Made by a program: the position numbers and the translations under genes. 64,000 nucleotides of DNA from Lentisphaerae bacterium GWF2_49_21. GTDB lineage: Bacteria > Verrucomicrobiota > Lentisphaeria > Victivallales > GWF2-50-93. Shown here one piece after another: positions 241-27,202 of this stretch. How positions within the stretch are numbered: position 1 is the stretch's first letter; each line of letters begins with the position of its first letter. The DNA lies in assembly GCA_001804805.1 (NCBI GenBank), contig MHBH01000028.1, positions 1 to 64,000 of the forward strand, written 5' to 3'. A model generated the notes under the pieces. It did not search any database and was not told the origin of the DNA. It saw only the letters and a program-made list of their open reading frames with translations.

Positions 241-1431
241 GTGGAGAGTGGAAATATGAAGAGGGTCAAGGATGTCATCCAGAACAATTCGCCTCGGTCG
301 CGGGTCATAAGGACGCTGAGGGACTGGATACAGAACGGGGATCTTGAGCCCGGTGAAAGACTGCCCGGCGAAATGGATATAGCAGAGAAGCTCGATGTGT
401 CGCGGGGGACTGTCAGGACCGCCCTGCGGCATCTTGAAGACGACGGCATCATAAAGACCATCGCCAATGGCCGTGGCAGGCATGTGGCGGACAGGGAGGA
501 GAAGAAGCCTGTCAATCCCCTGGAGAAGTTTTTCATCGTCCTGAGCAATCTTTCCGACGATCCTGCGAGATACGCAAAAAGCCATGCGATGTGGTCCGTG
601 GAATCCGGAGTAATAGACCAGTGCGGCAGGATGGGATTCCATTCGATGATACTGAACACAAGCTGTCTCAGGGACGGATCTTTCATCAATATGGTCAGGA
701 GTTCTCCTGCCGGCGTTCTGCTCTCCCACAACATGGTTGATTCCGGAGACTTGTGCAGGCAGGCATTGTCCGAGGCAACTTCGATGAGGATTCCGGTGGT
801 GATCAACGGTGACGGGGAAGGGCTGCAGAAGTTCGACCGTATCATCTCCGACCATGAGGCCGGCGCCTATCTCCTTGCAAAATATCTGATCAGTCGGGGC
901 TGCAGGAGAATTTTGATGGTATGGAGTTTCTCCGCAGTTCCATACTGGGTCAGAAGCAGGAATTCAGGGTATGAAAAGGCTGTCCGTGAATCCGGCCTGA
1001 AGTATCTTCCACCCATCTGCATTGACAACCTTGCATTGCGTGTTTCCGGGAGCAGGAAAAGCTTTGAGGAGAGGACCAGGCAGTACACAGGATATCTCGT
1101 GGAACACCTGTCCAAATCTGATCCGGTTGATGCGATCATGCTCACCAGCGACTCTGATTTCTATCCGGTTGCGGCCGCATGCCGCTTGCTCAATAAGATT
1201 CCCGGCAAGGACATATTGCTGGCGGGATATGACAATACATGGCAGGAATTCGAAGAGCGACAATGGGAGGAGTCTGTTCCAGCCGCCACAGTGGACAAAT
1301 GCAATTTCCAGATCGGTGGAGAAATGATAGACATGCTTATGGCCAGGATAGAGGGGAAGCTTTCCGGAAAACCTCAGTTCAAAAAAATAAAACCCCAGCT
1401 GATTGCAGGTGGAGTGGAAAATGGAAAATAG
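241..1431 (+). CDS. GntR-family transcriptional regulator with LacI/periplasmic-binding-like sensor domain
   Basis: N-terminal wHTH ([52 protein letters not shown]) followed by a LacI-like sensor region. The true start may be the ATG at 256. Confidence 0.85.
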
Positions 1432-2257
1432 CAGACATACGCTGATTGAACTGCTCGCCGCCGTACCAGTTGCGGATAGGCATCATTGCCAATTGCCGAT
1501 TGCCGATTGCCGATTTAAGAATAAAATTGGAAATCGGAAATTGGAAATCGGAAATAAATTCACCCTAATCGAGTTGCTCGTGGTCATTGCGATCATCGCA
1601 ATCCTCGCCGCGATGCTGCTGCCGGCCCTGCAGAACGCCAGGGAGCAGGCGAAAAGGGCCGTCTGCATTAACAATCTCAAGCAGATCGGAACCAGCGTGC
1701 ACATCTATGCGACGGACCATGAAGGATGGGGGATGGGCGGGTATCGCGGCGATGGATGGCTTATCCAATATGCCGGGACAGGACGTGTTTATCTGGGAGT
1801 ATTGATAGATGAGGGCTACCTCAAGATCCCTCCGGATATTCTTTATTGTCCGAGTTCCAAGTTTGTTCCCGGATGGACAGGTAAGAAGTGGAAGGCTGGA
1901 TCCACGGAGCAGGCCTGCTGGAATGCAGGTTCGGGCACCGAGTCATCCTATGAGACCAATCCAAACCTTTCATCGCATTCTTTAGGTGCAGGTTCGGATG
2001 GTTATGCCACGACCCGTAAAAGACTTTATAACATGCCTACCGGCTTGGCCATTGTCAGCGACTGGCACGGATATGATTCCTCTAATGCGACCTACGGTGA
2101 TTGTCCGAGAAATCACTGCAACTTCGGAAAGCCCAACTATTATACCTATTTAAAAGCCGATGGCTCAGTCCTTGCATTCTCGGATCCGACAGGAATAATC
2201 TATATGGCGGTAGAAGGCGCCCCTAATACAGGGCAACGGATGGCTCTTTTCCCGTAA
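1421..2257 (+). CDS. prepilin-type N-terminal cleavage/methylation domain protein, duplicated leader motif
   Basis: [15 protein letters not shown]...[36 protein letters not shown]-terminal '[10 protein letters not shown]' resembles the H-X9-DG motif. Overlaps the end of the regulator by 11 nt. Confidence 0.85.
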
Positions 2258-2264
2258 CAAAGAT

Positions 2265-2282
2265 AAATAGAGGTAATTGCAT
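2265..2282 (+). promoter_or_regulatory. leader/RBS module AAATAGAGGTAATTGCAT (copy 1)
   Basis: Identical 18-mer occurs at 7838-7855; lies just before the ATG at 2286. Confidence 0.4.
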
Positions 2283-2285
2283 AAC

Positions 2286-3080
2286 ATGAATAAAATGATT
2301 GTGTTTCTATTGTTTCTTTCCGCCTGCACAAGTTTCAACGAGCAAAAAACAGAAGGCATTCCATCCTTGATTGTCCCTAGGGCTGAAACAGCTCCGGTCA
2401 TTGATGGGAAGCTTGATGAGCCGGCCTGGAGCGGTGCAGCGGTAATTAAGGGGCTTCATCCGAGCAGAGGGGAAAGCTATCGGGACAGGATAGGCAAGAT
2501 TCCTACTACGGTACGTGTCCTCTGGGATGAGAACTTCCTGTATGTGAGTTTCGAGTGCGTTGACGACGATATCTACAGTTCTGGGAAATTGAAGCATGAC
2601 GATGATCTCTACAAGGAGGATGTCTGCGAGGTCTTCATCGACGGCAAGGGCGACGGACGGCAATTTGTGGAGATACAGGCGAATCCCGACGGGGTGAACC
2701 TGGATTTGATGTATGTTTTCACAGGAGATCCCGAATATACTTCTGAACTGCGCATGACTTCTGAATTCTGCGACAAGAACCGCTGGGGATTCCGCGAATG
2801 GAACATGGAGGGGCTGCGTACTGCCGGCTCGCGGATTTCCAGAGATGGCAAGATTGTCGGATGGAATGTGGAAATGGCTATTCCTGCGGCAGCGGTTGTG
2901 AAGCGGCAGGGCCTCAAGAATTTTGCTCCGATGGAGATAAGGGCGAATTTCCTGCGTTACTCCTGGCCTGTTGACGAAAAGACCGGCAAGCGCGATCTTC
3001 TCCACATGAACTGGTTCCCGGTTCTCAAAGGATGCCCGCATATCTCCCAGTCGTCAATGGGCAGGCTCGTACTAAGGTAA
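2286..3080 (+). CDS. CBM9/DOMON-like carbohydrate-binding lipoprotein
   Basis: Lipoprotein-like signal MNKMIVFLLFLSAC; 'APVIDGKLDEPAWSGAAVI' and 'VRVLWDENFLYVSFEC' typical of CBM9-like domains. Confidence 0.75.
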   Translation: MNKMIVFLLFLSACTSFNEQKTEGIPSLIVPRAETAPVIDGKLDEPAWSGAAVIKGLHPSRGESYRDRIGKIPTTVRVLWDENFLYVSFECVDDDIYSSGKLKHDDDLYKEDVCEVFIDGKGDGRQFVEIQANPDGVNLDLMYVFTGDPEYTSELRMTSEFCDKNRWGFREWNMEGLRTAGSRISRDGKIVGWNVEMAIPAAAVVKRQGLKNFAPMEIRANFLRYSWPVDEKTGKRDLLHMNWFPVLKGCPHISQSSMGRLVLR

Positions 3081-3087
3081 GGATTAG

Positions 3088-3960
3088 ATGAAAATGAAAA
3101 ATTTGATTCTTGATTTTTTCTCTCTGCACGAGAGAAAAAATATGTTCACTTTGATTGAATTGCTTGCTGTGCCAGCCGTAGCTGTTGGACTGTTTAGTCC
3201 GACGCGAAGGCAAGTTCGAAAAGCGTTTACGCTTATCGAACTGTTGGTCGTAATTGCGATCATCGCAATTCTCGTAGCGCTCCTGCTGCCGGCCCTGAAA
3301 CAGGCGAAGGAAACGGCAGCCAAGGTTGTATGCATGAGCAACCTAAGGCAGACAGGCATCGGAATTTCAGCCTATACCGTTGATTCCCAGGGCTGGACAC
3401 CTCCCTGCGCGGCAGTCTACTATTCGGATCAGGCGACTAATACCACCCAGTTTGGATATTATTCCGGAATGGGAATTCTCTACCCGGACTATATAAGCAG
3501 TTATAAGGTCCTGTACTGCCCGTCGTATCCCTACGCCCAGAAATGGATGATCCCGGCACGCTGGGAGCCGGACGTGATCAGGGCCCCTTTGAATAATTAT
3601 GGTGATAACCCGCCTTATATTGGATATTTCGCCCATGCACAACAGTACAGCGTCACTAATTTAAGGTCATCACCCAGCATGACCGATATCGTGCTGGACA
3701 GGATTCAAAAATCAAATGTAATAATCCCTCCATATCACTCAAACCATCCTGGCGGCAGCGACAATGACAAACGTGTCTGGCGTAAACCCAAGGGCGCCAA
3801 CTTCCTGTTTCTCGACGGAAGTGTGAGATGGTATTCCACAGGGGCTGAAGACATAAATACAGGGGGCCCCTTTCTATGGTCAGGCCAGATAATGTTCCAC
3901 AATGGGCAGCCTGTAAATATCATAGCGCAACCCAGCTATCCGTCCACGGTGAGGGATTGA
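3088..3960 (+). CDS. prepilin-type N-terminal domain protein, duplicated leader motif
   Basis: [57 protein letters not shown]; '[14 protein letters not shown]' C-terminal motif. An alternative start at 3142 (ATGTTCACTTTG) is possible. Confidence 0.85.
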
Positions 3961-4130
3961 AAAGAGGAGAAAAATAATTGGGAAGAGAACATGCCTTACG
4001 GGATCAATCCGCCTTAGGCGGATTAACTACAGGCAAATTCCAAATTGTCTTGTATATGTTCGTAGTCAATGTCGCAAGACATGTTCCTGATTTTATAGAG
4101 TTCACATAAATTTAAAGTAAAGGTTCAATC

Positions 4131-7100
4131 ATGAAAAGTACAGTCATCGCGAGTTTTACCAGCCTAATGTTGGTAGCTTATGTCCTAGTGGGTGCAGACG
4201 AAGCTGCGGCGCCTTCTGCTCTCGCGCCATTTGGTGCCGATCTCAAGGTGCCTGCCAGACAGGCCATCAAGGCTGCAGAGGTGAAGTCGCAGGCGATTGA
4301 ATGCCTGGCTCCCGCGAATGCAACCCAGTGGATTGTTGAAAATCCCCCGGAAGGTACGGCTGCGAAACTTTTCACGGTTGAAGAGCGCGACGGGAAAAAT
4401 ATCTTGAACATTTCCGCAGGCGAACTTGTTCCCGCAAGATCGACCGTGCGCATCCTTCTGCCTGGAGACGGGCCTGCCAACGGAGATCTCTGGGCGAAGA
4501 ACAGAGCCAGCTACATATCTTTCCTTTGCAAAAGCAGCAAGCCTTCGCAGATGACTTTCCATCTGCTCCAGCGCGGGAAGACAGCCGGGACGTTCCAGAC
4601 TGGTTTCTCCGCGAAGCCCGGTGAATGGCAGAGGATCATCCTCCCCATCCAGCTGTTCGATCTCAAGAGCTTCGCCAAAATTGCCGGCATCGGATTCCGG
4701 ACTGCATCCGCTGAAAAGGGGACGGATGTGTCGATTGCGGACTTCAGGGTCGGAGGAATTGCATACACCGACGATTCATGGAAGAGCCACAGGCTCTCGA
4801 TCAGTATTAATGGCGACTGGCATTTCGCCACTGATCCAGGAGAGCAGGGCATGAAGGATAAATGGTATGCCGACACCTTCGATGATTCACAGTGGAAGAT
4901 TCTCAAGTCGGGACTCTCATGGCAGGAGCAGGGGATATCCCATTACGGATACGCTTGGTACCGCCAGAAGATTTTTGTTCCGAAGGAATTCGCCGGTGTC
5001 CCGCTCACATTGAACCTGGTGCAGATCCAATCCGACGACGACACGTGGTTCAACGGCGCGCGCATTGGCGGATTCAGCAGCGAGTACAAGTACAAGAACT
5101 GGAATACGCGGGCATACACGGTTCCGCCTTCATTGATCCGTTATGGTGAGAACAATACCATCGCCATCCGTATCTGGGGCGGGAAAATCACATTTATCGG
5201 TGAGAAGAGCGGGCTTGTCAAAGGACCGCTGGTGGCGGAGCTGGATCCCTATTGCGTGAAGATGCGGGAGCCGGGCGGCGCGGATGTTCCGTTCGACTTG
5301 TTCGACTTGAGCGATGCCCGACAGGGCAAACCGTTTGAAATCGTCTTTTCATTACCGGCCGAAATGGCGAAGGAACAAGGCGCGAAGCTTCGTTACAGTC
5401 TCTCTGATCTACTCGGCAACGAAATAAAATCCGGCGAAACAACCCTGTCGACCGGTGCGGATCAGATTGCCAAGGCGGTGGTGGGCATTGACCGCGAGAC
5501 TGCGCAGGCCGTTTATCTGCGGGGACGTCTGCAGGCGAGCCTCGTCATCGAAGACGCAGCTGGCAATCCCCTGTATTCCGGGATCCGGGAGATGGATCGT
5601 CTCTCATTCGCGAAACGCGACAATCAGCCGTTGCCCGCCTTGCCGGAAAAAACCGAGGATACGCCTTACGGCAAACTCAGGCTCGTGGACGAGATTGATT
5701 GCGCGATATCGCTCTTTGAAGATCCGCATCCCTATCTTGAAAGCGGATTCAGTCATGCCGCTTCCCACTATACCCCCGGCATACCTGTACAGGTGAAAGT
5801 CGTAGACATCCTCGGCAAAAAAGCACGCGAGAGCGAATTCGGCTGGTTCGCCTACAGGATCGGCCGCGGCAAGCTCAAGCCGCACACGGATTATCTGCTC
5901 CGCATCGAATATCCCGAGGACAAGCCGCGTTTCGCCCCCATCGAGATCCAGACCGGACAGAACTTCATGGATGTCGGCTGGAGAAACGGCACCGGGCCCG
6001 ACAGTGTATATGACAATTGGCCGTTGAGCAAAAAATGGCAGTGGTATGATGTGATCATCCCTCTCGACGACCAGACAGTCGGCACAGCAGGGACCGGAAG
6101 TGCCTCCGCCGAGAATGGAGTCTGGGTTTATTTCATGAACAAGCTCAAGCCTAACATGTATTACGCTATGTGGGAAGGAGGTCCTGCCGTCGCCAGCATG
6201 AAGCTATATGAGATCGATCCCGAAAAAAATGCACCCCTCATCCAGAAGCCGAAAGGACTGCCCAGCCGTGTCCTGTCATTCGACTGGGAACGCCAGCCGG
6301 ATCACAATCCCGCCGACCTCGTGCGCTACGCGAAGCTCATGGGCTACAACGCCATTTCACCAGTGATCCTCAAGTGGTTCTTTGCAAACTACAGCGATCC
6401 TTTCAACGGTTATGACTCGATGGTGATCGACGATCACGATTACTGGGCGCACAAAGCCTACGATCCCGCCGGCGGCAAGAGCGCAGATTCGCCCTGGCCG
6501 GGAAAAAAATCCCAGCATGTCCGTTATCTTGAGGAGACAAAGCGTTACGGCATCGATTACATTCCTCGCGTGGAATGGGGCGGTTCCCAGGATCTGCCCA
6601 AGGAAGCTTGGGTGGTCGAAGTCAATGGAGAACCCGCCAAGCCCAACCGTTTCGCCCCATGGTGCGGCAACATCCTGAATCCGCTGACCTGGGACGACCT
6701 GAAAAAATTCATGGACCATCTGATCAAACCATACGTCAAGGACAATCCGCAGTTGACCGGCATGCTTTGGCGCATCCGCTGTGACAGGATGAGGATCAGC
6801 TACGGTCAGGCCGACCTGGAATTGTTCTCGAAGGAAACCAGCACCAAGCTTCCGCCCGGCGGGAAAGCACAGCAGGCCGCCTGGGCGACTGGTGAAGGAA
6901 AGGCGCAATACGATGCCTGGTGGCACCAGAAGCGTGTGGATTTCCACAGGAAGCTGGTGGAACTGCTTAAAAGCTACTGCTCCGATATGACGCTTTATTA
7001 TTACAACTGGGAAGGGGACAAGTTCGGTCTGATCCTGCCGTCCAACACGACATGGGCATTCAACAAGAATCTGATCAATGCGCCCAATGGAGCCAAGGCG

Positions 7101-7823
7101 GTCTATGAAAAGGACGAGGCGGAACGCAGGAAGTTCACTGCGGCCGACTATATCGAAACTGTGCGCACTGGAAACTTTGGCGCATCAAGCGGAGGTATCA
7201 ACCGGGCCGACTACGGAATTCGTCCGAACCTCTACAAGGACATCAAAGGCATCCAGCTTTTTGCTCCTGCCAACTATCTGTGCTACGCGGATCTGCCCGA
7301 ATACTTGAACTATTTCCAGACCGCCGACGGTCTGGCGGTCAGTAATGCTGTTCCCTATGACGAGATAGGTTCACGTTCCATCAATCCCAAATATGAAGGC
7401 AACATGATCACTCCTGCAGGTGCTCCCTTCAGCATGGCCTTCGAACTTCTGCCGTATTTCCATGGTGATGCGAGGACGCTGAACTACACGGTCTACACAT
7501 ACGGACGTGGATTCGCCGATGCGCACCGCCGTTTTGCGCAGGCATTCCTGGCGCTGCCGGCGATCCCGGGGACCGTCGTAGAGCAGGGGGACAAGGATCT
7601 GAAAGTCCGCGTCTATCATTCGGTGAATGGAACTTATGTCGGAGTGGCATATAAAGGTTATGCAGCGAAGAAACTCACGGTGAAAGTGCCGGCCAAGGCA
7701 GGAGCGAAGATCACCAATCTTGTCACAGGCCAGAGTGTTCCGACAACAGCCGCGGGCAATGACCTTCAATTCGATCTGGAGTCGGGGCCGATGGAACTCA
7801 ATGCGTTTCTGGTGCAGCCGTGA
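4131..7823 (+). CDS. large secreted protein with GH2-like sugar-binding jelly-roll domain; putative glycoside hydrolase
   Basis: Signal peptide; 'INGDWHFATDPGEQGMKDKWYADTFDDSQWKIL...WYRQKIFVP' resembles GH2 N-terminal domains; C-terminal all-beta domain. Confidence 0.6.
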   Translation: MKSTVIASFTSLMLVAYVLVGADEAAAPSALAPFGADLKVPARQAIKAAEVKSQAIECLAPANATQWIVENPPEGTAAKLFTVEERDGKNILNISAGELVPARSTVRILLPGDGPANGDLWAKNRASYISFLCKSSKPSQMTFHLLQRGKTAGTFQTGFSAKPGEWQRIILPIQLFDLKSFAKIAGIGFRTASAEKGTDVSIADFRVGGIAYTDDSWKSHRLSISINGDWHFATDPGEQGMKDKWYADTFDDSQWKILKSGLSWQEQGISHYGYAWYRQKIFVPKEFAGVPLTLNLVQIQSDDDTWFNGARIGGFSSEYKYKNWNTRAYTVPPSLIRYGENNTIAIRIWGGKITFIGEKSGLVKGPLVAELDPYCVKMREPGGADVPFDLFDLSDARQGKPFEIVFSLPAEMAKEQGAKLRYSLSDLLGNEIKSGETTLSTGADQIAKAVVGIDRETAQAVYLRGRLQASLVIEDAAGNPLYSGIREMDRLSFAKRDNQPLPALPEKTEDTPYGKLRLVDEIDCAISLFEDPHPYLESGFSHAASHYTPGIPVQVKVVDILGKKARESEFGWFAYRIGRGKLKPHTDYLLRIEYPEDKPRFAPIEIQTGQNFMDVGWRNGTGPDSVYDNWPLSKKWQWYDVIIPLDDQTVGTAGTGSASAENGVWVYFMNKLKPNMYYAMWEGGPAVASMKLYEIDPEKNAPLIQKPKGLPSRVLSFDWERQPDHNPADLVRYAKLMGYNAISPVILKWFFANYSDPFNGYDSMVIDDHDYWAHKAYDPAGGKSADSPWPGKKSQHVRYLEETKRYGIDYIPRVEWGGSQDLPKEAWVVEVNGEPAKPNRFAPWCGNILNPLTWDDLKKFMDHLIKPYVKDNPQLTGMLWRIRCDRMRISYGQADLELFSKETSTKLPPGGKAQQAAWATGEGKAQYDAWWHQKRVDFHRKLVELLKSYCSDMTLYYYNWEGDKFGLILPSNTTWAFNKNLINAPNGAKAVYEKDEAERRKFTAADYIETVRTGNFGASSGGINRADYGIRPNLYKDIKGIQLFAPANYLCYADLPEYLNYFQTADGLAVSNAVPYDEIGSRSINPKYEGNMITPAGAPFSMAFELLPYFHGDARTLNYTVYTYGRGFADAHRRFAQAFLALPAIPGTVVEQGDKDLKVRVYHSVNGTYVGVAYKGYAAKKLTVKVPAKAGAKITNLVTGQSVPTTAAGNDLQFDLESGPMELNAFLVQP

Positions 7824-7837
7824 TCGCATTTGTAAAA

Positions 7838-7855
7838 AAATAGAGGTAATTGCAT
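7838..7855 (+). promoter_or_regulatory. leader/RBS module AAATAGAGGTAATTGCAT (copy 2), not adjacent to a start codon
   Basis: Same 18-mer as at 2265-2282; here followed by ~120 nt of repeat-like sequence before the ATG at 7999. Confidence 0.4.
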
Positions 7856-7998
7856 TATTGCTTTTTAAAGGAGCGCCGGTCTCAAGACCGGCTCTTATAG
7901 CCGACCTGGCCTGTCCTTCATAGCCTCTTGGCGAAGTAGGAAGGTCGGCGTTCCTTGGCAATTTTGCAATCAGCTCATTAAAATAAGGAATAATCGTT

Positions 7999-9504
7999 AT
8001 GCACAATATTCTTGGCATTGCTGGAACTCATCTTCTTCAATTCATTGCCGCTATCTCCGCGCTGCTGGCGCTCACATCCCAGGCCGGAACGGCGGTTCAG
8101 CTCCCCTCCTTCTTTTCCGATCACATGGTACTTCAAACCGGCAGACCTGTTCCTGTGTGGGGCAAGGCCGATCCCAAGGAGAAAATTACTGTCAGCATTG
8201 GCGACCAGACAAAGACAACCGAGGCGGGACAGGATGGCAAATGGTCTGTGAAACTTGATCCCATGCAGCCGGGTGGTCCCCTGACACTTACTGTGCAAAG
8301 TGGTGATGCCGGCAAACGTACCATTAATGACGTGCTGGTGGGAGAGGTCTGGCTCTGCTCGGGCCAGTCGAACATGGCGCTGACCGTCAACAAGGCGATG
8401 AATTATGAAAAGGAACAGCCCTTGGCGACCTGGCCGAAGATCCGGACGATGCAGAATAACAAGTGGGTAGTGTGCAGTCCCGAGACCGTCGGCACTTTCT
8501 CCGCGGCGGCTTATTTCTTTGGCCGCGAAATCCATAAAAAGACAGGTCTGCCTGTCGGATTGCTCAACGTTTCTTCGGGTGGCACTCCAATCGAATTGTG
8601 GACAAGCCTGGAAGCACAGAAGGCTGTTCCGGAACTGAAGCCTCTTTTCGAATCAAGCGGGGAGGCCGCAGTCGCCAGCAAGGAAGATGCAGAGCAGGCC
8701 AACAGTGACCGCAACCAAGCTGCGGAAGTCGAAGGCAAAAAGGCCGTCGCCGGACAGAAGGTGGCCCCCGGCTATCTCTTCAATGGCAGAATCCTTCCTC
8801 TGGCCCCATACGCGATTCGCGGCGCCATATGGTATCAGGGTGAGGCAAATTCCTATACCGTCAACGCCAATCTCTACGGAATCCAGCTCGCTACCATGAT
8901 CAAGGACTGGCGCAGCCGCTGGGGATTCGATTTCGCCTTCATCACGGTGCAGCTTCCAGACATCGGATCAGCACAGACCGAGCCGGTGCAGACCCATGGG
9001 CGCGTGCTGGTGCGCGAAGGGGTCCTGAAATCGTTGAGCGTGCCCAATACCGGCATGGCTGTAACGATCGGAACCGGCGAGGAGAAAAGCAATCATCCCA
9101 AGAACAAGCAGGAAGTTGGACGGCGCCTGGCGCAGTGGGCCCTGGCTAAGGTTTACGAACAGAAGGACGTGGCGGGCTCCGGACCATTGCCTGAGAGCAG
9201 TAAGGTCGTAGACGGAAAAATCGTAGTCACTTTTTCTCATGCCGATGGAGGCTTGGTGGCGCAGGGCGGTGGAGAACTGAAAGGCTTTGCAATCGCCGGT
9301 GCGGACATGAAATGGGTATGGGGCAGGGCGACGATTGACGGCAAGACAGTGATCGTCTCAAGTCCGGAAGTGAAAGAGCCTGTCGCAGTGCGTTACGCCT
9401 GGGCGCTCAACCCGGCAAGCAGCAATCTGTTCAACGGCGCAGGCCTGCCAGCCACGCCGTTCAGGACCGACAACGAACCGCTCTCAAATGCGCATATGCA
9501 TTAG
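7999..9504 (+). CDS. sialate O-acetylesterase family (SGNH) protein
   Basis: 'LPSFFSDHMVLQ', 'VGEVWLCSGQSNMALTV', 'IRGAIWYQGEANSY' are characteristic of this family. Confidence 0.9.
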   Translation: MHNILGIAGTHLLQFIAAISALLALTSQAGTAVQLPSFFSDHMVLQTGRPVPVWGKADPKEKITVSIGDQTKTTEAGQDGKWSVKLDPMQPGGPLTLTVQSGDAGKRTINDVLVGEVWLCSGQSNMALTVNKAMNYEKEQPLATWPKIRTMQNNKWVVCSPETVGTFSAAAYFFGREIHKKTGLPVGLLNVSSGGTPIELWTSLEAQKAVPELKPLFESSGEAAVASKEDAEQANSDRNQAAEVEGKKAVAGQKVAPGYLFNGRILPLAPYAIRGAIWYQGEANSYTVNANLYGIQLATMIKDWRSRWGFDFAFITVQLPDIGSAQTEPVQTHGRVLVREGVLKSLSVPNTGMAVTIGTGEEKSNHPKNKQEVGRRLAQWALAKVYEQKDVAGSGPLPESSKVVDGKIVVTFSHADGGLVAQGGGELKGFAIAGADMKWVWGRATIDGKTVIVSSPEVKEPVAVRYAWALNPASSNLFNGAGLPATPFRTDNEPLSNAHMH

Positions 9505-9550
9505 CGGATTTAGTGATTCTCTGTTTAACGTTGCGGATCACCTGCGGCTA

Positions 9551-10951
9551 TCAGCCGTCGCGTGCATCCGGCTTGTTGGCCGATGTCTGGTATTTTGCGT
9601 TCGTATAGCTCGTGTCCGCATTTGGTCCATGCCCCAGTTCGGAAAGGCGCTGCCGGAATTGGCGGATGGCATCGGAGTATCCCGGTAAGTCAGCGACATT
9701 CACAGTCTCGCCTGGGTCATTCGCCAGATCAAAAAGTACCTCCGGGATCCCTTCACCATAATACTGATACTTCAATCGGTCCTGTTTGATCATGACATGG
9801 GTTGGGCCCATCTGACTAACTGTCTCGTTGTTCCAGTCTCCGGTTTCTCCATGAAGAAGGGGCAACAGACTGCGACTGTCCAGCCCGTCTGGAATGTCTA
9901 AGCCCGCAAGATCACAGAGAGTTGCGAACAAATCACAGAGATTGACATTTTCATCTACTACGCGTGCTTGGAACTGCTTGGGCCATCTGATGATCAGCGG
10001 AACACGCACACTGCCTTCGTAGAATCGGGTCTTCTCCCATATGCCGTGTTCTCCGAGCATTTCTCCATGGTCGGAAGTGTAGACGATAATCCAATCATCC
10101 AGGTCTTCACCCAGTGCCTCCAGTTTGTCCAGAACCTGACCGAAGTAGGCATCCACCTGATCGATCATGCCGTAGTAGGCTGCCGTCGCGCGGCGAATGG
10201 CGTCTTCAGAAACGTTCACCGGCTTGTTCTGCTGACTCAAAGACAAGACGGGGTGGTCGCACGGTTCCTGAACGTAGACCGGTACACGATCCAGATAATA
10301 TGCAAACCTCTGCTCGTCGGTGAAGAACGGATAGTGTGGTTGCAGCAGGCTGAGTTTGAAAAGAAGCGGACGGTGAGATTGAGGGCGGCAATAGACTGGG
10401 TCGGCAAAATAACGCTCAAGATAGTCGAGAGCGGCATCGACAGCACGCGCATCAAACGTCTGGTACGGTCCTTCGACCGCTTTCGCTTCCTCGATTTCGC
10501 GCTGGTTAGACCATTTCCCCGTTCCCGGCGCTGGCGAATACCGTTCAAATTCCTCCGCGATGGCGCCTTCAATGTAACGGTTCATCATGTCAGCATCGGG
10601 AGCAATGCGCGTTGTCCATCCCTGCATCTGGTCTTGGGTCAAGTGGTGCAGTTTCCCGCTGCAGGCGGTATTGTACGCGTATCTTGAAAACTCACGCGAA
10701 AAGGTTTGATATCCCGGCTCAAGATCAATCCACCCCTCACATTTGCACGTTTTGGGCAACTGTCCCGCCATCATGCACTGTCGGGCAGGAACACAGACTG
10801 GAGACGGAGTGTACGCATTGTGAAACACAACCCCTGCCTTGGCCAGGCGGTCAAGATTCGGCGTGCGAATAACCGGATTGCCTTCGTAACCAGTCACATC
10901 GGCGCGGTGCTCGTCGCTCATCAGAAACAGGATATTGGGTTTCTTCTTCAT
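9551..10951 (-). CDS. type I sulfatase (arylsulfatase family)
   Basis: 'KPNILFLMSDEHRADVTG' metal-binding start and 'SPVCVPARQCMMAG' containing the CxPxR formylglycine signature. Confidence 0.92.
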   Translation of the reverse strand: MKKKPNILFLMSDEHRADVTGYEGNPVIRTPNLDRLAKAGVVFHNAYTPSPVCVPARQCMMAGQLPKTCKCEGWIDLEPGYQTFSREFSRYAYNTACSGKLHHLTQDQMQGWTTRIAPDADMMNRYIEGAIAEEFERYSPAPGTGKWSNQREIEEAKAVEGPYQTFDARAVDAALDYLERYFADPVYCRPQSHRPLLFKLSLLQPHYPFFTDEQRFAYYLDRVPVYVQEPCDHPVLSLSQQNKPVNVSEDAIRRATAAYYGMIDQVDAYFGQVLDKLEALGEDLDDWIIVYTSDHGEMLGEHGIWEKTRFYEGSVRVPLIIRWPKQFQARVVDENVNLCDLFATLCDLAGLDIPDGLDSRSLLPLLHGETGDWNNETVSQMGPTHVMIKQDRLKYQYYGEGIPEVLFDLANDPGETVNVADLPGYSDAIRQFRQRLSELGHGPNADTSYTNAKYQTSANKPDARDG

Positions 10952-11022
10952 GTTGTCTCAGCCAACGCCTCAGCCTGGTAACCGAACGTAGCGAGGTTAC
11001 CAGAAGGCTCATGGTTATAATT

Positions 11023-11250
11023 CTATTTTTTGTCTTTGTCTGTAATTTCTTTGCTCACATGTGTACTAATCGCAATCAGTGTATTCAGGTCAGTTTTAAT
11101 TTCTTCAATTGATTCTTCCATTTTATTCATTTGTTTTTTCATTCTATAAACAAAAAATGGCATGAGCAATGCCAAGGCACCTATTACGAAAAGAGCTGTA
11201 TAAGCTAGAATCCATAAAATCAACATCATTATTGTTCCAAAGTTTTCCAT
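11023..11250 (-). CDS. small membrane protein with C-terminal coiled segment
   Basis: Long hydrophobic N-terminal stretch (ILWILAYTALFVIGALALLMPFFVY) then KMEESIEEIKTDLNTLIAI. Confidence 0.6.
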   Translation of the reverse strand: MENFGTIMMLILWILAYTALFVIGALALLMPFFVYRMKKQMNKMEESIEEIKTDLNTLIAISTHVSKEITDKDKK

Positions 11251-11276
11251 AATCGCTTTCTTTCTATTTATAACGC

Positions 11277-11864
11277 CTATGGTCTGCCGGACGGCGGAGC
11301 CGGATAGGCAGAACTAGATTTGTTAGGAGTTATTATAATTGGCATGCCGTATCCTTCTTTGGTCAACTCATCTTCAGTCTTCTTTCTCAGTTTAGTAACG
11401 TCTACAGGTTTTCCCTCAATATCTGTTGTGGCAATTCGTTGACCTTCCGAATATTTCTCTATAACTGGGATTTCATACTCAAAAATGCAAAAGGTTCCAT
11501 TTCTGTTCTTCTTAACAAATCCTGATTGGTAGCTTCCTTCGGCTGTAAGTCGACCATCCTTAAGCCATGATTTTTCTGTAACAGTTTTTGAGTCATATTT
11601 CTTTTCTGTCCATTTCTTGCCCGATGAATAATAAAATTTTATATATCCTTCCCCAGAAACATCATCCCTGTATTCTTCAAGGAATATTGTTCCGTCAGGG
11701 TAAAGCCTTGTTAAAGTCGGTTTTTTAGATTCCTTATCTGTCTTATCTTCTGCAATTGAATTCCCGGCAGCTTTTATATTGGTCTCTGTAGCTGTTTTTG
11801 AACATGAACAGAAATATCCTAATGCGCAACATAAGAAAGAATATATAATCATTCTGTAGTTCAT
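11277..11864 (-). CDS. lipoprotein with MORN/YwqK-like repeats
   Basis: Lipobox-like 'ALGYFCSC'; repeats such as 'LYPDGTIFLEEYRDD', 'FYYSSGKKWTEKKYD', 'WLKDGRLTAEGSYQSG'. Confidence 0.6.
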   Translation of the reverse strand: MNYRMIIYSFLCCALGYFCSCSKTATETNIKAAGNSIAEDKTDKESKKPTLTRLYPDGTIFLEEYRDDVSGEGYIKFYYSSGKKWTEKKYDSKTVTEKSWLKDGRLTAEGSYQSGFVKKNRNGTFCIFEYEIPVIEKYSEGQRIATTDIEGKPVDVTKLRKKTEDELTKEGYGMPIIITPNKSSSAYPAPPSGRP

Positions 11865-12257
11865 TTTTATTCTTCTCCTAACTCCTTATTATGCTGAACA
11901 GCATAGCAGGTTGAAATGGGGGTATGGAGACAGTGTGTTGTAGCGCCATTCCCCCGTGTCTAGCCTCAAAAATCAATCGGGTTAACTGCTTATGCTTAAA
12001 TCAGCATAAGCACATATAAAATAGACCCCGATGAACCACGGAAGTCAAGGTTGCGGTTTCAAATACCCGCCCAGGGTATTGCTATATAAAAAGGGTTAGA
12101 TCCTTTTAGCATCCATCCTTTTTACACCGGCAAGATGCCAGAGCTCCGTTAATCAAGAACAGCTCTTGAGAGCGTGGGACAGAATATCGAATAACGAACG
12201 CCGAATGACGAATATCGAAGGTGAAATGGGAAGCGGGCATTCGTGATTGAATTAAAG

Positions 12258-12338
12258 AATGTAACACAGGCATCTTGCCTGTGGTTGGAATTCGGGAAAG
12301 TAAAATAGAAGACACAGGCAAGATGCCTGTGTTACATT
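12258..12338. repeat. 26-bp perfect inverted repeat with 29-nt spacer
   Basis: AATGTAACACAGGCATCTTGCCTGTG (12258-12283) and CACAGGCAAGATGCCTGTGTTACATT (12313-12338) are exact reverse complements. Confidence 0.9.
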
Positions 12339-12651
12339 GGTAAAACAATCCGGAGGTTTGGAACTTGGAACTTACTAATAGTCTCGAAATAGAATGGAGT
12401 TCCAAAATAAAGGAGGGCGGACTTTCCAGTCCGCCAACTCGCGGGTTGGAAAACCCGCGCTCCGTTGAAGAGGAAATGTATTGAGACTATTATGAGACGA
12501 CTAGTAATTACAGGGGGGCATGAACATCGAACATTCAACATTGAACGTCCAACATCGAATGGAAAAGCTTGCCGGCAAGATGCCAGCGCTCCAGGGGGAA
12601 TGAACAGTGCGAATCTTGTTTTATTTCAAATTCACCTGTAAGCTATTTATT

Positions 12652-14364
12652 ATGCAACAGATGGAACATGATGTAAAGAACAGGATGATGAAGCGGCTGC
12701 GCTTTGTATATGGAGATACTTCGTCCGGGATCTTCGAGGAGATTGAGAAGATCATCGGGGCATATCGCGGACGGATTCCAGCTGCGAAGACCGCATGGAG
12801 CGAAAAGGACTCGTTCCTCATCGCCTATGGCGATTCAATAACAGGCGGGAAGAATCCTCTGTCCACACTTCATGGATTTTTAAAGAAGAATTTCAAGGAC
12901 GAGATCTCATTCGTTCATCTTCTTCCTTTTTACCCATACTCGTCGGACGACGGTTTTTCCGTGATCGACTACCGCGAGGTCAGGAAGGATCTTGGCGACT
13001 GGAATGATGTCAAGTCGATGGGCGGGGATTTCAAACTGGTCTTTGACGGCGTGATCAACCATGTCTCAAGCCAGAGCCGGTATTTGAAGGAATATCTGGC
13101 AGGGAATCTGGAATATGCGTATTATTTCATTTCGCTTCCGCCTGACACCGACACTTCATCCGTGCTGCGGACCCGGAATCTTCCCCTACTTCATGATTAT
13201 GATTCTGCAGAAGGGAAGAAGTGGCTCTGGACTACGTTCAGCCGCGACCAGGTGGATTTCAATTTTTCCAATCCTAAAGTGCTGCTTGAGATCGTGGACA
13301 TCCTCCTCTTCTATGCGGCGCATGGCGCGACGATGATACGCCTTGACGCCATCCCATACATGTGGAAGAAACTCGGTACAAGCTGTGCGCATCTTCCGGA
13401 GACACACGAGCTCATCAAGCTGTTCAGGGATATTTTTGACGTTTCGGCTCCGCATGTGATCCTGCTTACTGAGACAAATGTCCCACATCATGAGAACATA
13501 GCTTATTTTGGAAATGCCGGCGACGAAGCACAGATCATCTATAATTTCAGCCTGCCTCCGCTGATTCTCTGGTCAATGTTCAAACAGGATGCGACTGTCC
13601 TTTCCGACTGGGCGTCAGGAGTGAAAAAAGTTTCGGATCGGACGACATTCCTCAATATTACTGCGACACATGACGGGATAGGGGTGAGGCCGACAGAAGG
13701 GATTTTGTCGGTGGATGAGCGGATGGAGCTGTGCGAGCTGGCGCGGAGGCATGGCGGGGACATCACAGGGAAGAAGAATTCCGACGGTTCGATAAGTCCG
13801 TATGAGCTTAATATAAATTATTTCGATGCGATAAACGATCCTCATGCCGATGAAAGTATTGATCTGCAGATAAGACGTTTCATGCTTTCGCAGACCATCC
13901 CGATGTCGTTCATAGGCATTCCGGGGATCTATATCCACAGCCTTCTTGGTTCGCGGAACTGGACGGAAGGTGTCAGGAAGACAGGCCGCGCGAGGACGAT
14001 CAACCGTGAGATCCTTAAAAGCAACGAGCTTGAAAAGGAACTTGGAAATCCGGGATCTGTCCGTGCGAAAGTCGCAAATGAGTACAGGCGTCTCCTGAAG
14101 ATACGTTCAGGATGCAAGGCTTTCCATCCTGGCTCTCCGCAGGAGGTGCTGAAGCTCCATCCGAAGCTTTTCTGTCTGAGGAGATGGACGGAAGATGGCA
14201 GCGATGAACTTTTCGCGATACATAACATCTCTTCCGAGGAAGTGATCTGCCGTCTGCCGGATTCCATCGAGGGAGCATACCGTGATCTTCTCAAAGGAGA
14301 GGTTTTCAAGTCCGGTGAAGTTTCAGTTCCCGCCTGGACTGCCTTATGGCTGTCATCTTTTTGA
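12652..14364 (+). CDS. GH13-family sugar phosphorylase (sucrose phosphorylase/glucosylglycerate phosphorylase-like)
   Basis: 'YGDSITGGKNPLSTLHGFLKKNF...VHLLPFYPYSSDDGFSVIDYREVRKDLGDW', 'LIRLDAIPYMWKKLGT'-like region, 'TETNVPH', 'TATHDGIGVRP'. Confidence 0.85.
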   Translation: MQQMEHDVKNRMMKRLRFVYGDTSSGIFEEIEKIIGAYRGRIPAAKTAWSEKDSFLIAYGDSITGGKNPLSTLHGFLKKNFKDEISFVHLLPFYPYSSDDGFSVIDYREVRKDLGDWNDVKSMGGDFKLVFDGVINHVSSQSRYLKEYLAGNLEYAYYFISLPPDTDTSSVLRTRNLPLLHDYDSAEGKKWLWTTFSRDQVDFNFSNPKVLLEIVDILLFYAAHGATMIRLDAIPYMWKKLGTSCAHLPETHELIKLFRDIFDVSAPHVILLTETNVPHHENIAYFGNAGDEAQIIYNFSLPPLILWSMFKQDATVLSDWASGVKKVSDRTTFLNITATHDGIGVRPTEGILSVDERMELCELARRHGGDITGKKNSDGSISPYELNINYFDAINDPHADESIDLQIRRFMLSQTIPMSFIGIPGIYIHSLLGSRNWTEGVRKTGRARTINREILKSNELEKELGNPGSVRAKVANEYRRLLKIRSGCKAFHPGSPQEVLKLHPKLFCLRRWTEDGSDELFAIHNISSEEVICRLPDSIEGAYRDLLKGEVFKSGEVSVPAWTALWLSSF

Positions 14365-14481
14365 GAAAGATCTATTTTCCAGCTTTCCATTCATTTGCTG
14401 TTGCGTTTTAATACTTTGTTATATATAATACTGATAATAAAGTAAAAAGACTGCATGTTCATATTACTGCAAGGTGGGACA

Positions 14482-15522
14482 ATGGAAGAGAAATTCCGCT
14501 GTAAAAGCAAATCCCTGCGGTTTACGCTTATCGAGCTTCTCGTGGCCTGCCCCACGTCGCCAAGGCTATGTGGGGTAAACCAGCCGACGTGTCCCTCGAA
14601 GCCCCTTGGGCGTAGTGGGAAGTTACCCGTAAGGGGACGTAGGCCAATTCAGTCAAAGTTCACTTTGATTGAATTGCTTGTGGTCATTGCGATCATCGGA
14701 ATCCTCATGGCGCTGCTTTTTCCAGCATTGCGTAAGGCAAAGGACAAGGCCAAGGTGGCCTGCTGCATGAGCAACCAGAGGCAGATGGGGGTGTCGCTCG
14801 GGGCATACGGTGCAGACTTCGGTGAATATCCCACAAACTATGATGAAGACGATCCGGAGGCCGCCACAAACTGGGGTGATGAATGCACTCTCAAGTGGTA
14901 TGGCAGTCCTCCCAGTACGTTGGTTCCCGGAATAGTTTATCTCCCCAACCAGGCAGATGCCGCTCCTGATCTTCCAGGTCTCCAGAACGGCGCCTGGCAC
15001 AGGCTGGCTGGCGCAGGATATGTAGCTTATGCGAACTTTCCTTCGTCAAACAGGTATATGATTCCGAGCGGGATCAATCTTTGCACCGGAGATCTGCCTG
15101 CTGGCAGGGTTTTCAATGGTGGTTCATCGCTGTATTCCGATGGCGGAGCCTTGTACACATATAATGGCCCTAACGCCAAAGGATCAAACGTAGGAAACAA
15201 TGGCTGCCTGAACGGCATGTACCGCATGGGACGCCACCATCAGGCTGTCACATGGGGACTTCGCCTATATAGGGAAGTCCCTAAGTTCACTGTATCACAG
15301 ATAGCGTTCCTGGGCTGTCCCTCCATATATAGCAAAAGCAATGTTGATAAAATAGTGATCGAACCGCACGGTTTTCAGCCCGCTTCTGTAGGTGCCGGCC
15401 AGTATGATGCTGGTTTTGGCGGCATGAACCCTCTCCAGAACTACCACTACGACCGCAACTATCTCTACGGCGACCTCCATGCCGAATATCTGCATGCCAT
15501 CAGCAGGGAAGGGATTCCGTGA
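14482..15522 (+). CDS. prepilin-type N-terminal domain protein, duplicated leader motif
   Basis: [77 protein letters not shown]-terminus '[24 protein letters not shown]'. Confidence 0.85.
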   Translation: MEEKFRCKSKSLRFTLIELLVACPTSPRLCGVNQPTCPSKPLGRSGKLPVRGRRPIQSKFTLIELLVVIAIIGILMALLFPALRKAKDKAKVACCMSNQRQMGVSLGAYGADFGEYPTNYDEDDPEAATNWGDECTLKWYGSPPSTLVPGIVYLPNQADAAPDLPGLQNGAWHRLAGAGYVAYANFPSSNRYMIPSGINLCTGDLPAGRVFNGGSSLYSDGGALYTYNGPNAKGSNVGNNGCLNGMYRMGRHHQAVTWGLRLYREVPKFTVSQIAFLGCPSIYSKSNVDKIVIEPHGFQPASVGAGQYDAGFGGMNPLQNYHYDRNYLYGDLHAEYLHAISREGIP

Positions 15523-15567
15523 TTCCTGCAGCTCCGCAAAAAATTTAAATAATCACGCTCTTTGGAT

Positions 15568-15596
15568 TTGACATGCTCAAACATTGCGTGTATTGT
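15568..15596 (+). promoter_or_regulatory. putative promoter TTGACA-N17-TATTGT overlapping the inverted repeat at 15591
   Basis: TTGACA 15568-15573; TATTGT 15591-15596, overlapping the operator-like left arm. Confidence 0.5.
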
Positions 15597-15628
15597 TATC
15601 GTAATAATACTATATAGCGATAACAATA
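15591..15628. promoter_or_regulatory. operator-like inverted repeat TATTGTTATCG-N16-CGATAACAATA
   Basis: 11-bp perfect arms 23 nt upstream of the ATG at 15648; core TGTTATC-N18-GATAACA recurs at 45025-45056. Confidence 0.55.
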
Positions 15629-15647
15629 TCTGCCGGGGGGAGCGCCG

Positions 15648-16619
15648 ATGAACAGGAAGTTTACGCTTATCGAACTGTTGGTGGCCTGCCAGCCGAAGTT
15701 ACCCGATAGGGGACGTAGGCCAATTCAAACAAAGTTTACTTTGATTGAATTGCTTGTGGTCATTGCGATCATCGCAATCCTGATCATGCTGCTTCTGCCT
15801 GCGCTCCAGCGGGCCAAGGAAAAGGCGCGGGTGGTCTGCTGCATGAGCAACCAGAAGCAGATGGGAGTGGCTCTTGCGGCATATGCCTGCGATGCCACTG
15901 AATATCCCACGAACTATTCAAATGACACCGACGAAGTTTCCTGGAACTGGGGCGACGAATGCGCCGGATACTGGTTTGGCGATCCTATGACTGACACCTA
16001 TATCCCTACCAATCCCGTTCATTATTATCCCAACTCAAGCAAGGCTGTTGATGTAACTCACTACGCAAAGGGAGCCTGGGCCCGTCTTGCCGGAACTGGA
16101 TATGCAACGTATAAGGCGGGACCGCTCTGGTCGGGAGGTCCCACCGGCATGGTTCCAACCGGCGCCAATCTCTGCACCGGAGAACTGCCTTCCGGGTGGA
16201 GGTACAGTGGTGGTGCCTACATGGGCGACGTATCGCAGACCAATGGAGGGGCCCTGTATACTTACAATGGCCCGCACCTTTCGCGTGTCTCCGCCGGAAA
16301 CAATGGCCATATGTCGGGCATGTATTTCATGGGCCGCTTCAATCAAGGGATCAAGTGGGGGATGCGGATAATGGGAAATACTGCAGGCTTCACTCTTTCG
16401 CAGATCGCATTGCTGGGCTGTCCTTCCATAATAACCAGCGATGCCTCAGTGATCCGCGAACCGCATGGCTTCCAATCAGCACGTGGAAGCTATGGCAATG
16501 GCCAGTATGATCCCGGCTGGGGCCCTCTTCCTGACAACTACCATTACGACCGCAGCTATCTTTTTGGCGACCTCCATGCTGAATATCTGCATACAGCCAG
16601 CCGTGCAGGGATTCCGTAA
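15648..16619 (+). CDS. prepilin-type N-terminal domain protein, duplicated leader motif; tandem paralogue of 14482-15522
   Basis: [71 protein letters not shown]-terminus '[24 protein letters not shown]'. Confidence 0.88.
15681..15780 (+). repeat. ~100-nt leader cassette copy 1 (insert plus second FTLIELLV motif)
   Basis: gtggcctgccagccgaagttacccgataggggacgtaggcc...gatcatcgcaatcc; about four mismatches versus 16814-16913 by eye. Confidence 0.8.
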
Positions 16620-16635
16620 TAGGGACGGAAGTTTC

Positions 16636-16664
16636 TTGACTATAAGAGGAAAATTTGATATAAT
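16636..16664 (+). promoter_or_regulatory. putative sigma70-type promoter TTGACT-N17-TATAAT
   Basis: TTGACT 16636-16641, TATAAT 16659-16664, upstream of the prepilin gene at 16688. Confidence 0.6.
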
Positions 16665-16687
16665 ACGACGCAACGGGGAGATGGCAT

Positions 16688-17644
16688 ATGGAAACCATGG
16701 GAAAAGAAACTGATGCCGGATTCAGGATACAGGATGCTAGATGTTCAAAGCCAGTATCCTCCTACGCAAGGTCTGCGCTGGACAGGATGCATTTCACCCT
16801 AATAGAACTGCTAGTGGCCTGCCAGCCGAAGTTACCCGTTAGGGGACGTAGGCCAATTCAAACAAAGTTTACTTTGATTGAATTGCTCGTGGTTATTGCG
16901 ATCATCGCAATTCTCGCATCATTGCTCCTGCCGGCATTGTCGAACGCAAAGGAGACTGCCCGCAGATCCATTTGCCTGTCGAACCTGAAGCAGATAGGAA
17001 CGATGTGCATGTGCTATGACTCCGACTACAACGGCTGGTTCCCCCCTTTCAATCAGAATCCAAACTGGCTGACCAGCAACACCTGCGGCTGCGGGGCATA
17101 TGTCCATGGACTTGGCATGCTCAACCGGCCACGCTTCGTTACCACGGCACCGGACTCGCCCGCCTACACCACCAATACCCAGGTTTTCTATTGTCCTAAC
17201 TTGAACAACGGTACTGCTCCACATTTCAATTTAGATTCCAGATTTGACGTATGGCATGATCTGGGTGGAGCCGGATATTTCTATCTCGGAAATCCATGGC
17301 ATACAGCCGATCCGGATGCCTGGAATAATTTGATCTTCGAACGCCTGTTGGTAGGAGGAGATACCAACCTGTGGTTGCCAACAGGATTCATATACGGCTC
17401 GGGCAGGATGGAAAATAGAAGTTTCACTCCCGATAAAATTCCATTGACCTGTGAATTGATGCAGGAGAACGGAGGCGATAGCTTCATAAGGATGCACTTT
17501 CCCGGCTCTGCCTGGCCCAGTGGCAAAAGCGGAGGCAATGTCGTCTTCGGAGATGGCCATGCAAGCTGGCTGAAGGGGACCAACTGGGGCATTGCCGGGG
17601 GAGCCAACGGTTTCTGCAGGCCCGCCATTTATCCTTGGGATTGA
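16688..17644 (+). CDS. prepilin-type N-terminal domain protein, duplicated leader motif
   Basis: [70 protein letters not shown]; '[14 protein letters not shown]' C-terminal motif. Confidence 0.88.
16814..16913 (+). repeat. ~100-nt leader cassette copy 2
   Basis: Near-identical to 15681-15780. Confidence 0.8.
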
Positions 17645-17896: not shown

Positions 17897-18004
17897 CACT
17901 TCCGCCTTCGCTGAGAAGCTACGGCGCGACAGGCCAAGGTCAGGGCCAAAGCGCCTGACATGAAAAATGAAAAAACCACATGTATAAAATAAGGACATGT
18001 TGAA

Positions 18005-23919: not shown

Positions 23920-24023
23920 AGTAGGTACGTGCTTCCCGTGTCCGCCATAGCTTCTTTGCGACGGTGGAAGCATGTACCATTTTAATCTAAGAAAATGGGA
24001 CAGGCTAAAGCCCGTCCCTACTT
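23920..24023. repeat. composite copy of the AGTAGGTACG..CCCTACTT repeat carrying a longer internal palindromic segment
   Basis: Flanks match 33017-33083 but the first hairpin contains tgtccgccatagcttctttgcgacggtggaa. Confidence 0.65.
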
Positions 24024-25419: not shown

Positions 25420-25508
25420 CTCCGGCCCTTCAGGACGGAATCATCTTCTATTATAGTACCTATGGTTGAAACCATAGGCTTCATTACTATACGCTTTCAG
25501 CGTTAAAT
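25420..25508. repeat. hairpin array (CCCTTCAGGACGG; CCTATGGTTGAAACCATAGG; TACGCTTTCAGCGTTAAA)
   Basis: Modules recur in a longer array at 30571-30751. Confidence 0.7.
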
Positions 25509-25544: not shown

Positions 25545-26252
25545 TCAAAGTTGAATGTTGGACGTTGGATGTTCAATTTGTGTTGAGTATTTTCTCCTAA
25601 GCAGATACCGTAGCGTTGCCAGGTTCCATGCGATAAGTGTTATGACGACGCACCATTCGAGTATGGCTATATCCCAGATGGCGGGCCTTTTGAACGCCTG
25701 TGTGTTCTTGATGTTGAAGCAGGTGTCGGCGGACATATGGAATGCGTTGAAGACGACTGCAAGGAAGAGGCAGCATGCGATTATCGAAAATATGCCAGCG
25801 AGAACGAGGGAAGGGGATTCGCGGAAGGAGAACCTGCGGCAGAACGCGATAGTGAACAGGATGACCGAGAACAGCCATCCCCAGAAGAACATCATTGCCA
25901 GGATGATGTGCGGTACAAGCAGATCCATCGGAGCAAATCCGACGCCTACTGCCCCTGCCAATGCACATGTGCCAAGCGCCGTCGCCACATAGGCGAGCTT
26001 GGTCCTTATATGAAGTCCCAGCGAATACATCAGCGGGAATAGCATGAGGCTGGAAATTATCATCGTCCAGTTGAACACCTGCGCCATCAGCGAGTGCCGT
26101 GGCGCGCCCAGTTCCGACACGAAATTGTTGAGGAATGAGAAACCGCCCCTCTCGGCGCTGAATATGGATATCGCCCAGGCGATCCCGCAGGTCTGGACCA
26201 CAAGCCCGCAGAATGCGAGCCATATCGGCAGATGATTTGATTTTATTTTCAC
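25545..26252 (-). CDS. DUF998-like integral membrane protein
   Basis: Six predicted hydrophobic segments; '[39 protein letters not shown]' resembles DUF998. Confidence 0.65.
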
Positions 26253-27202
26253 TGCGGATCATCCCATGGCTGGAGGATGTTGTTGGAACCGCCGAGGAAT
26301 TTCCATTTGCCTTCAGCGTATTTCAGCCAGGAGACATGTCCGTCGGCATATGTCGCATTGCCTCCACCTCTTTCTGCGGCACAGCCTTTTGGATGGCAGT
26401 TCCTGTCGTAACTGTCTGAGCCGTAATAATTGTCGGTGAGAAGCACGGCCTTGCTTGGAGAGACACCCTTCTTGGAGCCATTCCAAATTTTATTCAAGGT
26501 GTAGGCGATGCAGTTGTTTGGTCTAGTGTTCAATAAATCAGGTGTTATCTGTGCACCCCATTCTCCCGGAGGATACCAGTTGTAGGGATCATCGTCATAC
26601 ACCCTACATGGATTCGCCCAGTATACATAGCCGACCATCCCCTGATGCCTCTGATGGTAGTAATAGGCGGCGTTGGGAGCCATGTCTGGATTGTTTGTCC
26701 CGAAATATGTCGAGTTCGGACAGAAGAATACGGTCTCGTTCTTCATGTATTCCATGCCTCTGCCAAGAGTAACCTGGTTGTTCGGATAGAGAAAGCCAAG
26801 ACCGTATGGAGCTATCCCGTTGGCGGCATTGTTTTCCCATGAAAGTCCGCTTTTCCAGAAGTAGTTCGGGCTCAAAGTCTGGGGAGGGAAATAGGCGTCG
26901 GGCGCGTCTCCGGCATAGAGCAGGCAGCCGACACCGAGTTGTTTCTGGTTGCTTGCGCAGACGACACGTCTGGATATTTCCTTTGCATTCTTCAGGGCAG
27001 GCATCATCAGGGCGATCAGGATTGCGATGATCGCTATTACTACCAATAGCTCGATGAGAGTAAAATGCGATACTGGATACTTGATACTGGATACTGGCTT
27101 TGAACATATGGCATCCTGAAGCCTGTCTCCTGGATCATCTCTTTTAAATCGAGAATTGCTGGTTCTTTTCAGAGAGTTGGACTTATCGCGTCTGGATTTC
27201 AT
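26249..27202 (-). CDS. prepilin-type N-terminal domain protein (single leader motif with repeat-derived N-terminal extension)
   Basis: [47 protein letters not shown]; '[15 protein letters not shown]'; extension [20 protein letters not shown]. Confidence 0.88.

Follow-up and report, generated by a model that had tools for sequence, protein, structure and literature searches.

Most palindromic repeats keep out of genes. Elements that integrate at tRNA ends bring DNA that replaces the displaced part of the gene. In-frame palindromes within genes have been described in Rickettsia, and intragenic GTAG/CGTC REPs above all in Opitutus terrae (PMC3733652; PMC6649704); the main text of PMC3733652 names no Lentisphaera, Victivallis or pilin case. 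Here we describe double leaders, in which the FTLIELL motif stands twice, among the prepilin-type genes of a groundwater-type Lentisphaerota bacterium (G000; genome of 5.9 Mb), starting from a window of 64 kb of its contig C28. With a probability of about 0.75, these double leaders are small palindromic DNA cassettes inserted in the codons right after FTLIELL, which resupply the motif that they interrupt. An earlier sequence-only reading of this DNA says nothing of the motif-built palindrome, of insert families or of a replacement motif borne by the insert, and in the literature searched no paper mentions the motif string or describes the phenomenon.

Prepilin-type genes and leaders in the window

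All six genes on which the sequence-only reading was built are prepilin-type, and in all five window genes with a double leader the PF07963 / TIGR02532 profile stretches were found on the second motif only, two window genes lying just under or outside the Pfam cut-off (PF07963). The five double leaders and the single-motif gene at 26249 are present as that reading had it, and its spacing of 16-40 residues between motifs is right (34, 20, 39, 18 and 18 were counted). Its statement that FTLIELL is doubled in all five genes applies to four of them, the first motif of gene 1421 being HTLIELL. For the gene that it began at 14482 there is an earlier in-frame ATG at 14455, and the Shine-Dalgarno (SD) sequence GGGGGAG precedes the ATG at 15648. 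The features of the window are as follows.

1421..2257, + strand: prepilin-type gene (N_methyl and DUF1559 start); HTLIELL first motif 1436-1456, insert 1457-1558, functional motif 1559-1579
3088..3960, + strand: prepilin-type gene with H-X9-DG end; first motif 3145-3165, family B insert 3166-3225, functional motif 3226-3246
3211..3246, + strand: family B second palindrome, CAAGTTCGAAAAGCG/TTTA/CGCTTATCGAACTGTTG; the right arm is the FTLIELL codons; fold of the B insert, z -4.95
14455..15522, + strand: prepilin-type gene; first motif 14521-14541, family A insert 14542-14658, functional motif 14659-14679
14646..14675, + strand: family A second palindrome, AATTCAGTCAAAG/TTCA/CTTTGATTGAATT
15648..16619, + strand: prepilin-type gene; first motif 15660-15680, family A insert 15681-15734, functional motif 15735-15755
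15722..15751, + strand: family A second palindrome, AATTCAAACAAAG/TTTA/CTTTGATTGAATT
16688..17644, + strand: prepilin-type gene with repeat-derived N-terminus; first motif 16793-16813, family A insert 16814-16867, functional motif 16868-16888
16855..16884, + strand: family A second palindrome
17899..17931, - strand: intergenic copy of the generic REP-like hairpin TGTCGCGCCGTAGCTTCTCAGCGAAGGCGGAAG, a type also found inside inserts
23943..23971, + strand: intergenic REP-like hairpin of the same type as the TGTCGCGCCGTAGCTTCTCAGCGAAGGCGGAAG copy
26249..27202, - strand: single-motif prepilin-type gene with repeat-derived leader; motif 27064-27044

The family A inserts of the window thus lie at 14542-14658, which contains two nested extra REP-like hairpins (30 and 33 nt), 15681-15734 and 16814-16867, and the family B insert at 3166-3225. 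The insert of gene 1421 (1457-1558) is a dispersed repeat of CCGATT/AATCGG, IADCR/IGNRK type without a second palindrome (score 3.5), and this gene is an atypical, probably older case that fits the cassette reading poorly. A dispersed repeat, QDA(R/I)CSKPVSS, is common to the leaders of two prepilin genes, at 16688-16790 and 27202-27065. The window also holds an Acido-Lenti-1 RNA (RF01687), an Rfam match above the gathering score, at 25459-25504 on the + strand.

The premise that prepilin peptidase cleaves before F is uncertain here, since only 12/170 genes of G000 have Gly at position -1; the figures for its two congeners G001 and G003 are 3/98 and 4/42, at odds with the classical pattern for prepilin peptidase. 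Peptidase A24 was found in G000 and G001, and classical prepilin peptidase cleavage of the G000 leaders is not assured. K, R and A dominate position -1 in the prepilin-type genes of G000.

Insert families and motif-built palindromes

To extend the count beyond the window, 73 stretches were taken that cover nearly all prepilin-type loci of the host genome, with about 170 motif-plus-helix genes under a loose filter that lets in a few first motifs. Counting as an upstream copy any in-frame stretch that agrees with FTLIELL at 5 or more of 7 residues, we found double leaders in 53 of these ~170 genes (~31%), which supplies the genome-wide count that the sequence-only reading had proposed. Among sampled loci of congeners, G001 has 11/98 (11%) and G003 22/42 (52%). 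Over the three genomes, 86/310 leaders have such an upstream copy against 0/620 out-of-frame controls, and the double leaders are therefore not due to chance. Triple motifs occur in at least four genes.

Five insert families were characterised, each of which begins directly after the host's own motif. The inserts, mostly 42-117 nt between motifs, usually contain a REP-like hairpin (H1), and every family ends in a second palindrome (H2), the right arm of which is the second FTLIELL coding sequence itself. Their left boundary is sharp and their right boundary soft, with the next 27 nt slightly above background within families. The REP-like hairpin GCCGTAGC...GCGAAGGC and its variants are found in most inserts and also alone between genes; by a search pattern that was derived from leaders it is about 20 times denser in leaders than elsewhere, and within leaders it runs 24:1 in gene orientation. 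Other dispersed-repeat words were found in 32/170 leaders against 5/170 equal stretches of gene body. With families A, B and C as queries, motif-bearing copies were seen at prepilin leaders only, wherever the match was inspected.

Comparison of the motif DNA separates the two copies. Within a family, second motifs are identical at 17.5-19.9 of 21 positions and first motifs at 13.7-15.8, and the first and second motif of the same gene agree at 14.0-14.9 of 21, against a paralogue background of 15.3. The second motif is thus alike within a family while the first is at paralogue background, which shows that the second copy is carried by the insert and that the first is the host's own. Two other origins were rejected on the same grounds: target-site duplication, because the motif DNA of one gene is no closer than that of random paralogues (14.7 vs 15.4 of 21), and in-situ duplication of the host motif, because the second motif DNA follows the insert family instead.

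Moreover, an inverted copy of the motif coding DNA lies just 5' of the second motif, as in family A, AATTCAATCAAAG-TTTA-CTTTGATTGAATT. This inverted arm scores a mean of 10.1 against its own second motif and 5.9 against swapped partners (0/10,000 permutations), with 5.0 against the first motif and 5.1 against single-leader genes. For family C, pairing holds in 96% of cells, and changes on both sides are seen in 10 cells compared with 3.2 after shuffling (0/500) and 0-2 in slid registers. Since the changes in the arms alter the encoded residues, it is base pairing that is kept and not the peptide.

A history without any mobile element has a real, if limited, chance of being right. Ectopic recombination and quasi-palindrome correction among the ~170 paralogues, with the arms matched by replication template switching, would find an obvious homology target in the repeated motif DNA, and would agree with the soft right boundary and with the covariation of palindrome arms between copies. 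It would also agree with two single-motif genes, C43:62976 and C33:143808 (L036, L026), which have an inverted motif copy 5' of the motif and so show the palindrome without an insert, REP or first motif. However, individual insert families turn up again in unrelated genes, sharply bounded on the left, in fixed orientation and with complete hairpins, and transfer of a donor's first motif was not seen. The earlier proposal of repeat insertion or recombination between paralogues stands in outline: the inserts are repeat-type palindromes, and the two motifs differ in origin.

It is improbable that the hairpins are selected RNA elements controlling the translation of prepilin mRNA. Representative inserts do fold strongly (z -1.6 to -5.9) and carry compensatory changes, but sister orthologues do without hairpins, hairpin sequences are unrelated between families, and the generic REP copies are intergenic.

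Decay, orthologues and reading frame

The first motif is altered by amino-acid changes in 26/88 cases and the second in none, which bears out the earlier suggestion that the first copy is a remnant. Of 56 reciprocal-best pairs between G000 and its congener G001, the double leader is confined to the G000 member in 19 and to the G001 member in 3, shared in 1 and absent in 33, so that the comparison with sister genomes, likewise suggested by the sequence-only reading, finds mostly single leaders and leaves its insertion idea in place. In the pair L063/L164, whose N-terminus is conserved, the first motif occupies the ancestral N-terminal position, where the sister has its single motif. The orthologue pattern, this position and the decay together indicate the order of events: insertion, takeover by the cassette motif, decay of the old motif and sometimes a new insertion. 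An attempt to place the insertion junction by DNA comparison with G001 orthologues was abandoned, since G000 and G001 have reached saturation at synonymous sites, which leaves the exact junction unreadable. The variant FTII is very rare, yet the two double-leader genes that have it as functional motif, L020 (C32:25292 region) and L044 (C53:90250 region), have FTII in the first motif as well. This may point to a link between the copies that lies outside the cassette model.

A selected role for the double leader as a functional domain, e.g., as a two-step targeting signal, is very unlikely. The double leader occurs in many genes with the frame kept, but orthologues at 80-90% identity are without it, its first motif decays, the insert peptides are unrelated between families, and the changes in the palindrome arms are non-synonymous.

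An any-frame DNA search, in which some loci count twice, gave 61 upstream copies, all of them in frame with the functional motif and separated from it by no stop; the same is true of 13/13 in a gut set that partly overlaps the 61. The motif-to-motif distance takes 22 values, all multiples of 3, and the length changes of 33 and 63 nt that nested extra hairpins cause in family A are also multiples of 3. These observations indicate that the upstream copy is translated, and the spacing pattern is a trace of selection for an open frame. Translational bypassing was rejected because all inserts are multiples of 3 and stop-free. An upstream ATG with an SD score of at least 4/6 is present in 61/86 doubles, no start codon lies between the motifs in 15/86, and SD sequences are better at upstream starts than anywhere between the copies. 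The earlier alternative of a translation start at the second motif, and likewise a start just before it that leaves the upstream copy untranslated, is therefore scarcely credible, even though only the second motif adjoins the helix and 11/86 doubles offer, between the motifs, a start codon preceded by a moderate SD.

For the reading that we prefer, insertion of palindromic cassettes, the following course may be proposed. A cassette would consist of the REP-like hairpin H1 and of H2, the right arm of which carries the cassette-borne FTLIELL codons. Insertion would leave the host motif upstream, no longer beside the membrane helix, and the cassette copy would take over its role so that the pilin stays functional; with the whole stretch read in frame, the first motif would be free to decay, and further cassettes landing behind the newest motif would produce triple leaders. 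Insertions may survive because the N-terminal pre-sequence is dispensable or removed. Copying would use the repeated motif coding DNA as homology, by template switching or gene conversion at the hairpins, with hairpin-stalled replication most likely the site of this homology-based copying and with a possible role for a Y1 transposase. Y1_Tnp (PF01797) genes are numerous where REP-type inserts occur, at 10-20 per genome in G000, G001, G002, G003 and G321, with about 20 in the host, and number 0-1 in the four other members of the order checked (G009, G016, G017 and G168). No REP hairpins flank the Y1 transposase at the four loci examined, three of them from insert-bearing genomes, and we count it against the cassette reading that no transposition or recombination event was seen. 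The further idea of a dedicated, still mobile class of Lentisphaerota cassettes, which would target the FTLIELL site with a fixed junction, restore the motif and stack in a way reminiscent of integron arrays, is tentative and in our view rather doubtful.

Distribution and comparison with known systems

Insert families that are built alike but unrelated in sequence occur in other Lentisphaerota, gut Victivallales included. The family of gut Victivallales, SHLCCDREKPAHGQGKAC, is present in 28/137 genomes of the order searched; its last hairpin is GGGTAAAGC..GCTTTACCC or GGTGAAGCTG..CAGCTTCACC and shares bases with the F-T codons. Beyond Lentisphaerota, a scan of a genome collection, which with one Ile codon and limited spacings samples part of what exists, returned one strict double only, the Patescibacteria gene L114. 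This gene, from Candidatus Vogelbacteria, has a double leader with a small palindrome and Gly at -1 in both copies. Most pattern-scan matches in Planctomycetota and Verrucomicrobia were discarded as chance ATTGARTTY strings without motifs.

In these leaders, a single 20-nt stretch reveals two constraints, that of the protein motif and that of base pairing. The leaders offer a natural system in which to study the movement of non-autonomous palindromes and the origin of new N-terminal peptides, and they carry a warning for annotation, since the start sites of double-leader prepilin proteins are unreliable.

Among described systems, Rickettsia palindromic elements (RPEs) are alike in being short palindromes placed in frame in many coding genes, translated, tolerated and lineage-specific, and the inserts described here are likewise palindromic, in frame, repeated in many genes and absent from orthologues. 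The likeness is one of design. RPEs occupy many unrelated genes, whereas here one motif of one superfamily is occupied and a copy of the motif lies inside the palindrome. GTAG/CGTC REPs may resemble H1, a hairpin of 20-40 nt with apparent GTAG (family B) or ATAG/CGTC-type feet that is also intergenic; a tetranucleotide foot followed by a short hairpin can be made out by eye in families B and C. However, the intragenic REPs reported lie in varied genes without a target-restoring second hairpin, as far as PMC3733652 shows, and RAYT-flanking copies are absent at the four Y1 loci examined here. Mitochondrial byp elements and T4 gene 60 bypassing also involve hairpin-bearing inserts in coding sequence, but the inserts here are all multiples of 3 and stop-free, and bypassing is unneeded. 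The likeness to gene-restoring elements at tRNA ends is by analogy, no integrase, core site or cargo being shown here. As far as the texts on RPEs and intragenic REPs show, neither carries its own target copy or keeps to one motif (PMC3733652; PMC6649704); the inserts of Lentisphaerota leaders, by bringing a replacement motif, have settled in the same handful of codons across a huge gene family.
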